From Anaerolineales bacterium (GTDB lineage Bacteria; Chloroflexota; Anaerolineae; Anaerolineales; UBA6663), in the NCBI GenBank assembly GCA_020845955.1, contig JADLEU010000100.1, positions 1 through 64,000 on the forward strand: 64,000 bases of DNA. Direction: 5' to 3'. Below are positions 54,185 to 56,798 of this stretch, piece by piece; within the stretch, counting starts at the first letter, position 1; each line of letters starts with the position of its first letter. Position numbers and translations under genes: made by a program. Below the pieces are notes generated by a model. The model did not search any database. It worked only from the letters and a program-made list of their open reading frames with translations, and had not been told where the DNA came from.

Positions 54185-54952
54185 ATGTTGGCGTCACTAG
54201 AAGCTGGCGGGGGGCAGGTCATGTATGACGCGGCATCCGGCCGCGCGATGTTGCAGGCCCCTCCGACCCCAGCGCGGCAGTACACCGACGCACAGCTAGA
54301 CGACTATCACGCGCCGCGCGCCGGCGGCCGGCGGGCGCGCCTCCGCTTTGCTCACCGGCCGCCACTGCGCCTGTCACTGCGGGCGCGCGCCTCGCACGCC
54401 GCGCCGGCCGGCACGCTTGGGTTTGGATTTTGGAACGAGCCCTTTTCCGTGTTGGGCGCCATTGGGGGCACGCCAAACGTGGCCTGGTTCTTCTACGCGG
54501 CGCCGCCGTCTGATATGGTCCTGGCGCCGGGCGTACCTGGCCGCGGCTGGAAAGCGGCCACGCTGTACACGGGCCGGCTGCCGGGGTGGCTGGTCGGGCC
54601 TCCGGTCCTGGCGGCGATGGCGCTGGCCCGCGTGCCTGGGCTGGGACGGCCCATCTTGAGCCTGGGACGCCGTTTTGTAACCGCCTACGAAGCCTTGCTC
54701 GACGATGTGGCGCTCGATGCCTGGCGCGAGTATGTGCTGGAATGGCGGCCGCGCGAAGCCCGCTTTTTGGTCGATGGCGTCGAACGCCTGCGCTCGCCGG
54801 CCCCGCCGGTCGGCCCGTTGGGGCTGGTCATCTGGATCGACAACCAGTATGCCGTCGCCTCACTTGACGGGCGCCTTGGGTTCGGCGTCACACCGCTGGC
54901 CGAGGCCCAGACCCTTGAGATCGAGGGATTACGGCTGGAACCTTTGGTATAA
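54185..54952 (+). CDS. putative jelly-roll (concanavalin-like) protein
   Basis: A 255-residue protein without signal peptide or clear membrane segment. The pattern LRFAHRPPLRLSLRARASHA, GTLGFGFWNEPFSVLGAIGG, YVLEWRPREARFLVDGVERL and VIWIDNQYAVASLDGRLGFG is that of a laminin-G/GH16-like beta sandwich. No paired catalytic glutamates of GH16 (E-x-D-x-x-E) were found, so it is probably non-enzymatic. The end of the gene overlaps the -10 box of the ABC-F transcript. Function unknown. Confidence 0.65.
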   Translation: MLASLEAGGGQVMYDAASGRAMLQAPPTPARQYTDAQLDDYHAPRAGGRRARLRFAHRPPLRLSLRARASHAAPAGTLGFGFWNEPFSVLGAIGGTPNVAWFFYAAPPSDMVLAPGVPGRGWKAATLYTGRLPGWLVGPPVLAAMALARVPGLGRPILSLGRRFVTAYEALLDDVALDAWREYVLEWRPREARFLVDGVERLRSPAPPVGPLGLVIWIDNQYAVASLDGRLGFGVTPLAEAQTLEIEGLRLEPLV

Positions 54953-54953
54953 T
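54945..54953 (+). promoter_or_regulatory. extended -10 promoter of the ABC-F leader
   Basis: TGG-TATAAT (TATAAT at 54948-54953). Transcription should start near 54960-54961. Confidence 0.6.
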
Positions 54954-54960
54954 GCGGCCC

Positions 54961-55068
54961 GTGATCTACGTGACCCGGTTAGCCCAGGCGATGCTGTGCG
55001 TGGGGATGCGCGGTTCCATCGTCCGCCGTCCTGCTTGGATTCCGCCTGCTGCCTGCTGGCTAGGCTAA
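54961..55068 (+). CDS. candidate leader peptide (uORF) of the ABC-F gene
   Basis: A 35-codon frame starting at GTG exactly where the transcript should begin. It reads VIYVTRLAQAMLCVGMRGSI, then VRRPAWIPPAACWLG and a TAA stop. It has no ribosome site and would be translated as a leaderless message. The codons CGGTTAGCC early in the frame (54976-54984) are perfectly complementary to GGCTAACCG at its stop (55063-55071). A terminator hairpin follows 30 nt later. The layout is that of a ribosome-mediated attenuator; the peptide itself has no known relative. Confidence 0.45.
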   Translation: MIYVTRLAQAMLCVGMRGSIVRRPAWIPPAACWLG

Positions 55069-55097
55069 CCGCGTGCCATCCCGGCGCGCACCTGATC

Positions 55098-55130
55098 CGC
55101 CGCAGGCCCCGCCTGCGGCGTTTTGTTTGT
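55098..55130 (+). terminator. intrinsic terminator/attenuator upstream of the ABC-F gene
   Basis: Stem CGCCGCAGGC / GCCTGCGGCG (55098-55120), ten base pairs with a CCC loop, followed by TTTTGTTTGT. It lies 16-26 nt before the ATG at 55146, so the gene is silent unless the hairpin is prevented. Confidence 0.78.
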
Positions 55131-55145
55131 CTATGGAGCCTTGCC

Positions 55146-56798
55146 ATGATTGCGGTGAGCTTTGCCAACGTTAGCCTTGTCCTGGGAGCACGCCCCATTT
55201 TCCGTGACCTCTACTGGGAAATCCAGCGTGACCAGCGGGTGGGCTTGATTGGGCCCAACGGCGCGGGCAAATCGTCGCTGTTGAAACTCATTACGGGCGA
55301 GTACACCCCCGAGCCCGGCGGCCAGGTCGTGAAGACGCGCGGTTTGAATGTCGGCTACCTGGCGCAGGAGCCTGATCTCGACCTGCGGCAGACGGCCCTT
55401 GAGGCGGCCCTGGCCGGCAATGCCAGAGTCGCCGAGCTGGAGGCCGAATTGGACCAGGTCGAGCAGCGTTTGGGCGACCGGGCCGTCTACGGCGATGAGC
55501 GCGCGCTGACGCGCACGCTGGAACGCCAGGAGCGGCTTCTGGACGAATACAAGGCCCTGGGCGGAGCGGGCTACGCCGAGCGCGTGGCAGCGGCACTGCG
55601 CGGCCTGGGGTTGTCGGAAGCAGACTCCGCTCGCCCCATCGGGGCGCTGAGCGGGGGACAGAAGAAACTGGTCGGCCTAGCCCGCCTGCTGCTGGCCCGG
55701 CCGGACGTGCTGCTGCTGGACGAGCCCGACAACCACCTCGACCTGGCCGGCAAGGCTTTCCTCGAACAACTCATCAACACCTATAGCGGCGCTGTCGTCA
55801 TCATCTCGCACGACCGCTACCTCCTCGACGCCGTCGTCACGCACATCGCCGAGATCGAAGATGGCCGCCTGACGACCTTTGCCGGCGTCTATTCCACCTA
55901 CGTGGCCGAAAAGGAAGAACGGCTGGCGCGCCTGGACGAGCTATACCGAGTGCAGCAGCGCAAGATCAGCCGCATCGAGGCCGCCATCAAACGCTACGCT
56001 GTCTGGGCCAAGGTCTACGACAACGAGAAGTTCGCCAAACGCGCCCAATCTATCCAGAAGCAGCTCGACAAGGTCGATAGGATTGAGCGCCCGGTGCTGG
56101 AGCGGCGCCGGATGGAGTTGGCTCTGCGCGGCTGGCGCGGATCCAGCAAAGTGCTCGAAATGACCGGCGTGGAGAAGCGCTTTGGCGCCGAGGCGCCGCT
56201 GCGGGGCGTCGACCTGCTGCTGCGCCACGGCGATCGCGTCGGGTTGATCGGCGCCAACGGCGCAGGCAAATCGGTCCTGCTGCGCATCATCAGGGGCGCG
56301 ACAGCCCCCGACGCCGGCCAGGTCAAACTTGGTCCCAGCGTGCAATTGGGCTATTACGCCCAGGAGCATGAGACGCTTGCCCCGGAACAGACCCCGCTCC
56401 AGGCCGCGCGCCGCGCCGCCGCGATCTCAGAAGACGGGGCTGTGGCCTTCCTCAAACGTTATCTGTTCTCATACCAGCAGGTTGCGCAGCGGATTGGGGC
56501 GCTCTCGGGGGGCGAGCGCAGCCGCCTGCAGATGGCGCTGTTGGTGCTGTCTGGCGCCAACTTTCTGCTGCTCGATGAGCCCACGAACAACCTCGACATC
56601 GCCTCGGCGGAGGTGCTGGAGGACTCGCTGGCAGACTTCGAGGGCACGGTGCTGGTCATCTCGCACGACCGCTACTTCCTTGACCGCACGGTCAACCGGA
56701 TCGTCGAATTGGAGGCTGGGCGTTTGACCGAATACGTGGGTACCTTTGCTGACTACACCGAGAAGAAGGCTCAGGCCGGACCCAGCCGCGCGCCTTGA
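55146..56798 (+). CDS. ABC-F family ATPase
   Basis: A 550-residue protein with two ABC cassettes and no membrane segment. Cassette 1: GPNGAGKSS, LSGGQKKLVGLARLLLARP and DEPDNHLDL (Asp for the usual Thr). Cassette 2: GANGAGKSV, LSGGERSRLQMALLVL and DEPTNNLDI. The linker between them (about 255-320) is the charged helical P-site tRNA interaction motif (RIEAAIKRYAVWAKVYDNEK and more). ABC-F proteins act on the ribosome, either as translation factors or as antibiotic-resistance proteins. Resistance members are often controlled by leader-peptide attenuation, and this gene has such a leader upstream. Subfamily not determined. Confidence 0.92.
   Translation: MIAVSFANVSLVLGARPIFRDLYWEIQRDQRVGLIGPNGAGKSSLLKLITGEYTPEPGGQVVKTRGLNVGYLAQEPDLDLRQTALEAALAGNARVAELEAELDQVEQRLGDRAVYGDERALTRTLERQERLLDEYKALGGAGYAERVAAALRGLGLSEADSARPIGALSGGQKKLVGLARLLLARPDVLLLDEPDNHLDLAGKAFLEQLINTYSGAVVIISHDRYLLDAVVTHIAEIEDGRLTTFAGVYSTYVAEKEERLARLDELYRVQQRKISRIEAAIKRYAVWAKVYDNEKFAKRAQSIQKQLDKVDRIERPVLERRRMELALRGWRGSSKVLEMTGVEKRFGAEAPLRGVDLLLRHGDRVGLIGANGAGKSVLLRIIRGATAPDAGQVKLGPSVQLGYYAQEHETLAPEQTPLQAARRAAAISEDGAVAFLKRYLFSYQQVAQRIGALSGGERSRLQMALLVLSGANFLLLDEPTNNLDIASAEVLEDSLADFEGTVLVISHDRYFLDRTVNRIVELEAGRLTEYVGTFADYTEKKAQAGPSRAP

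Follow-up and report, generated by a model that had tools for sequence, protein, structure and literature searches.

A predicted ribosome-mediated transcription attenuator with a leaderless uORF upstream of an ABC-F gene in an uncultured Chloroflexota bacterium

Described attenuators and the locus analysed here

In Bacillus subtilis, the ABC-F gene vmlR is controlled by uORF-dependent attenuation, in which an anti-antiterminator, an antiterminator and a terminator take part (Takada et al. 2022, PMC9226507). Another ABC-F gene, msrD of streptococci, is regulated by a macrolide-sensing leader peptide that responds to ribosome-bound drug (PMC10314930). Leaderless cysteine-responsive attenuators are found in mycobacteria (Canestrari et al. 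2020, cited in PMC9031893 and PMC13236596); in these, cysteine is sensed through polycysteine codons, with an effect on the translation of downstream genes. In the case of ilvB1, the ribosome at the stop codon masks the antiterminator strand (PMC13236596).

The locus described here comes from an uncultured Chloroflexota bacterium and lies in a window of 64,000 nucleotides, the window being the whole stretch of DNA that was analysed. It consists of a short uORF, the translation of which is suggested by its codon pattern, and of an intrinsic terminator and a structural gene that follow it. As in vmlR, an ABC-F gene appears to be subject to uORF-dependent transcription attenuation involving an anti-antiterminator, an antiterminator and a terminator. 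While the vmlR uORF comprises three codons (MIN), has a Shine-Dalgarno (SD) sequence and lies inside SL-1, uORFs of the window type are leaderless, span about 31-35 codons, and have a conserved nascent-peptide segment and an antiterminator strand inside their own 3' end. A leader peptide upstream of an ABC-F gene is shared with msrD, whereas the peptide, the host phylum and the RNA anatomy differ from those of msrD. The use of a leaderless short ORF as an attenuator is shared with the mycobacterial systems; in contrast to these, the window leader carries an intrinsic terminator and no codon run, and it stands before an ABC-F gene. The position of the ribosome would select antiterminator or terminator as it does in trp/ilv-type attenuators, but there is no regulatory run of cognate codons and the target is not a biosynthetic operon. 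The initial annotation had stated that the leader matches none that is known. In agreement with this, no Rfam 15 family was matched above its gathering cut-off (the best sub-threshold match was terminator-like, with E 2.6), and the open-licence literature searched yielded no account of attenuators that respond to drugs or stalling in Chloroflexota. As a form of ribosome-mediated attenuation, the attenuator predicted in the window is new, and it probably belongs to a larger family that has not been described.

Anatomy of the leader and its ABC-F gene

The features of the locus are listed below, in window coordinates.

54945-54953, forward strand: extended -10 box TGG-TATAAT, of which TATAAT (54948-54953) overlaps the TAA stop of the upstream ORF 54185-54952
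54961-55068, forward strand: leaderless uORF of 35 codons, GTG start at the predicted +1, stop TAA
54976-54990, forward strand: R1, CGGTTAGCC followed by CAGGCG, predicted anti-antiterminator strand with partners CGCCTG (55043-55048) and GGCTAACCG (55063-55071); its 9-bp part is lineage-specific
54994-55017, forward strand: uORF codons 12-19, LCVGMRGS (family consensus LxIGVRGF), a candidate motif for stalling, with conservation at the amino-acid level
55030-55056, forward strand: R2, predicted antiterminator strand, with CCTGC (55030-55034), GCCTGC (55044-55049) and GCCTGC (55051-55056), each able to pair with GCAGG(C) at 55102-55107
55063-55071, forward strand: GGCTAACCG, 3' partner of the 9-bp helix, spanning the uORF stop; lineage-specific
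55098-55129, forward strand: intrinsic terminator with a 10-bp stem, CCC loop and T-tract
55098-55107, forward strand: R3, terminator 5' arm and also 3' strand of the predicted antiterminator
55135-55138, forward strand: the ABC-F gene's SD, GGAG, lying outside the terminator
55146-56798, forward strand: ABC-F ATPase gene (550 aa, ATG at 55146; NCBIfam NF000355)

The uORF encodes the peptide VIYVTRLAQAMLCVGMRGSIVRRPAWIPPAACWLG. Its GTG lies 7 nt 3' of the -10 box, at the expected +1, with neither a leader nor an SD, and the predicted transcript is thus leaderless. The terminator hairpin is CGCCGCAGGC-CCC-GCCTGCGGCG at 55098-55120, followed by TTTTGTTTG. The extended -10 box, the 35-codon GTG frame at the expected +1 and the ten-bp terminator with its T-tract just 5' of the ABC-F ATG had all been noted in the initial annotation, and each was located in the sequence as described. 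The upstream ORF has no assigned function and has its stop codon inside the -10 box; it also lies upstream of the leader in a genome of the same family (L002).

It could be envisaged that the uORF lies by chance before the ordinary terminator of the upstream gene. Terminator-like hairpins are no rarer than chance in this GC-rich stretch (2 found, 2.4 expected), and a perfect inverted repeat of at least 9 bp arose in 10 of 500 shuffles of the stretch. The repeat and the terminator are not compelling alone, and the locus stands above chance because it is conserved. Its conservation in 70 genomes and the pattern of constraint within it, both given below, contradict a chance arrangement, which we find scarcely credible.

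The ABC-F protein scored 409 bits against NF000355 (ribosomal protection-like ABC-F; cut-off 380), a cut-off also passed by the relatives L036, L034 and L075, and reached the cut-off of no EttA, Uup or drug-specific ABC-F model in NCBIfam. As the EttA of the same genome scored 370.7 against the same cut-off, the separating margin is small and the NF000355 score is supportive, not decisive. The nearest solved structures were ExpZ (VmlR), followed by YheS and EttA, and the best plasmid matches were about 37% identical.

Conservation of the uORF and the constraint along it

A DNA search for the leader in 61 genomes returned a single full-length match beyond the window (70% identity over 218 nt, E 2.7e-18). 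It lies in the same-family genome, shares synteny, the -10 box, the leaderless start, the terminator and the ABC-F gene, and encodes the peptide MIYVSRMAQAMLCIGMRGSIGAAPNWIPPAARTT. The upstream regions of ABC-F orthologues yielded more leaders in other families, and a peptide profile (E <= 1e-3) run over 400 genomes of the order recovered the uORF peptide from 70. The uORF is thus kept in relatives, on which the annotation had made its proposal depend. After further loci had been fetched, 72 distinct leaders were tabulated. A -10-like hexamer is common to all 72, located 6-10 nt 5' of the start codon and exactly 7 nt from it in 50; 68 start with ATG and four with GTG, and a hairpin with a T-tract stands behind nearly all of the uORFs. 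The leader is absent before some ABC-F orthologues, for example L033 (71% identity). Three distant leaderless leaders (L079, L084 and L098) have another peptide motif (LMTSV / MMTSI) with a MIY-like start, and a GCGCC-like segment is kept in most of them; their motif suggests another sensor class.

The two halves of the uORF are constrained differently. Across the family, Gly18 is present in 72/72 leaders and uses four codons, Leu12 is kept in 83% with six codons, Arg17 in 88% and Phe19 in 90%, and codons 12-19 vary freely at the synonymous level. In contrast, codons 28-29 (GCGCCT) are fixed as nucleotides: Ala28 is GCG in all 61 cases and Pro29 is CCT in all 66, while CGCCT is kept in 71 of the 72 leaders whatever the frame. 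In nine leaders the usual Ala-Pro is not read from this segment, owing to a premature TGA (L147, L200 and L203) or a frameshift (L061, L087, L226, L229, L230 and L231). Thus the middle of the uORF seems to be read as peptide, while its 3' end acts as RNA. LxIGVRGF would be a new candidate stalling motif, and we infer that the ribosome stalls at codons 12-19; the nine natural variants offer ready-made tests of RNA versus peptide function. A CCTTSTCG/CCTCCTCG-like stretch lies just 5' of R2 (55030-55038 in the window) in all leaders, leaderless and SD-led, frameshifted ones included.

The same pattern bears on two other explanations. Close to the uORF stop, R-(I/S)-A-P-(V/A) could act by itself as a C-terminal arrest peptide similar to RAPP or SecM, with relief or strengthening of the arrest as the signal, and this motif does recur at the C-termini of leaders with unrelated N-termini and different downstream genes (PSRSAPVDR and PCRIAPVR, each followed by the stop, and WIPPAA). 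However, the nine leaders above retain the nucleotides and lose the peptide, the segment is also out of frame in the SD-led leaders L260 and L264, GCG and CCT are fixed where a peptide would permit synonyms, and arrest at this motif would mask R2 and favour termination. As RNA rather than peptide is kept, arrest at R-I-A-P was rejected as the main reading and is unlikely to explain the locus. Alternatively, the uORF could encode a conserved small protein with a function of its own, the terminator merely separating it from the ABC-F gene. The peptide is indeed kept with free synonymous codons and the uORF has its own promoter, but the peptide has no family match and tolerates truncated and frameshifted C-termini, and the RNA segment that can pair with the terminator arm keeps the same position within the uORF; moreover, the same architecture occurs with unrelated peptides before other genes. 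We consider a small protein of this kind very improbable.

Antiterminator pairing and the predicted switch

When the sequence from codon 27 to the terminator loop was folded, GCGCCUG paired with the terminator 5' arm (CAGG.. or GGCGC..) in nearly all leaders, and the antiterminator often enclosed a further GC:GC step together with a hairpin, for example UGAAAG/CUUUCA or UAAACA/UGUUUA. With a ribosome placed at codon 20, all of the 70 leaders modelled (100%) had 4 bp or more between R2 (20 nt) and the terminator arm, a share that was 45% when the left halves were shuffled; the mean folding z of this state was -1.8, and the expected R2:arm pairs fell from 9.3 to 3.8 once all sequence upstream of the arm was shuffled. 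With the P-site at codons 10-20, R2 was free and mostly paired with the arm, while with the P-site at codon 25 or later, the stop included, it was masked, as a consequence of the assumed footprint. The computed antiterminator is thus mutually exclusive with the terminator and masked or freed by ribosome position. In a naive search, R2 was the best complement of the terminator arm in 31/70 leaders against 13% expected, which is not decisive alone.

Consensus folding of MAFFT alignments gave the terminator and weak 4-bp antiterminators only, because the linkers misalign, and it was replaced by per-sequence folding and swap tests, which only partly correct for sequence relatedness. In these, the linker helix of the antiterminator covaried (matched -6.13, swapped -4.44 +/- 0.22, best of 2000 swaps -5.10 kcal/mol), and a control segment pair displayed no such effect. 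R2:R3 covariation within the leaderless set alone was modest (-11.73 vs -11.53 +/- 0.08), because both segments hardly vary. The putative conserved switch is the pairing of the segment at codons 27-31 with the terminator 5' arm. The leader of the window itself contains two GCCTGC copies and the CCTGC at 55030, and the one used depends on the modelled ribosome position. The models favour R2:R3 only at codons 20-22 without upstream RNA or with a ribosome at codon 25, and with a ribosome at codon 18 CCTGC (55030-55034) is picked instead. In these models the GC-rich window leader is less clear-cut than most of its relatives, and this weakens the case.

The initial annotation had also pointed to a perfect 9-bp pairing between the start and stop regions of the uORF. 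This pairing is present in the window, where CGGTTAGCC (54976-54984) can pair without a mismatch with GGCTAACCG (55063-55071), but it is specific to the lineage and absent even from the closest relative, the same-family genome with 70% DNA identity, and it was ruled out as the conserved switch. In the ribosome-free fold of the window, CAGGCG (54985-54990) pairs with CGCCTG (55043-55048) and the 9-bp helix closes the structure from outside. We read the predicted structure containing R1 as an anti-antiterminator that the helix supports in the window; over the leaderless family, R1:R2 pairing was weak in the swap test.

On the proposed mechanism, RNA polymerase would start at the first base of the uORF and a 70S ribosome would load on the leaderless start codon. 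A ribosome that reaches the stop codon would cover R2 (codons ~27-31 and just beyond), leaving R3 to pair with the 3' arm (R4), and the resulting terminator would stop transcription short of the ABC-F gene. A ribosome stalled upstream of about codon 22 would expose R2, which would pair with R3 and allow the polymerase to read into the ABC-F gene. With no ribosome, R2 would tend to pair with R1 and termination would again be favoured. The comparative support for the uORF-controlled attenuator put forward in the annotation is strong, comprising the conserved leaderless uORF, terminator and antiterminator segment and related leaders on resistance-like genes. From sequence, the locus is very likely a translated leaderless attenuator, and probably a ribosome-mediated transcription attenuator in which stalling on the uORF turns the ABC-F gene on; this direction of the switch is the most coherent one.

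As for the signal, our best guess is an antibiotic that targets the ribosome and against which the ABC-F protein acts. The attenuator could instead sense the general state of translation (amino-acid shortage, slow initiation or stress), with the ABC-F protein as a housekeeping translation factor. Leaderless initiation would couple readthrough to 70S availability, YheS and EttA, neither of them a resistance factor, are among the close ABC-F relatives with a known function, and the distribution of the leader is patchy. Against this, the leader peptides contain no run of one amino acid's codons, such as marks a trp-type attenuator, LxIGVRGF is kept as peptide and not as codon identity, the ABC-F protein exceeds the NF000355 cut-off, and related leaders stand before exporters and GNATs, which are typical of drug resistance. 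General sensing is thus possible but doubtful. If sensing of an antibiotic is correct, the largely uncultured Chloroflexota would detect ribosome inhibitors by means of nascent peptides encoded on leaderless transcripts, with initiation that needs no SD and a sensor read from the first base of the RNA.

Related leaders in the class Anaerolineae

A covariance model built from 29 leaders was run over 396 genomes of the class at E <= 0.01; 116 of these contained matches, frequently more than one or two each, the weakest matches being partly chance. At E <= 1e-4, the model R1 found no copies outside the order in the phylum genome sample and none outside the class; the denser class sample of 396 genomes has members in other orders. 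The matches include SD-led uORFs (AAAGGAGCGCACTC..ATG) ending in PSRSAPVDR or PCRSAPARW. In these, R2 has two pairing partners, R1, which is located in the SD/start region, and the terminator arm. Matched R1:R2 partners scored 18.98 against 18.20 for the best of 1000 swaps, and R2:R3 18.28 against 17.83. R1 of the SD-led leaders does not align in columns, and compensated sets include GCGCACTTC/GAAGTGCGC in L280 and CGCGCTAC/GTAGCGCG in L269.

The genes downstream of related leaders encode ABC exporters, ABC ATPases, GNAT acetyltransferases and other ABC-Fs (domains ABC_membrane, ABC_tran and GNAT). These leaders may form a class-wide regulon, a single attenuator family, partly leaderless and partly SD-led, with a common R2 core (GCGCC) and terminator, through which ribosome stalling would directly control ABC-Fs, ABC exporters, ABC ATPases and acetyltransferases without a regulatory protein; we hold the balance for and against this joint reading to be even. 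The leader would also provide a sequence signature for finding uncharacterised resistance-like genes.

The SD-led attenuators before ABC exporters and GNAT acetyltransferases (L251, L257, L265-L273, L275, L276, L279, L280 and L282) mostly have R1 in the SD region, and some carry a second terminator-like hairpin in tandem. In L163 and L165, the leader ends PCRIAPVARCTVN; two terminator-like hairpins come next, and then the gene for a GNAT acetyltransferase. The window's own genome holds a second family member (L264/L284, G000:C343:19988-20079), which is SD-led, has the uORF MAMFVSMNDALLRTPSGFAKIALPDCACCPE with R2 out of frame, and precedes a gene that is cut by the contig end.
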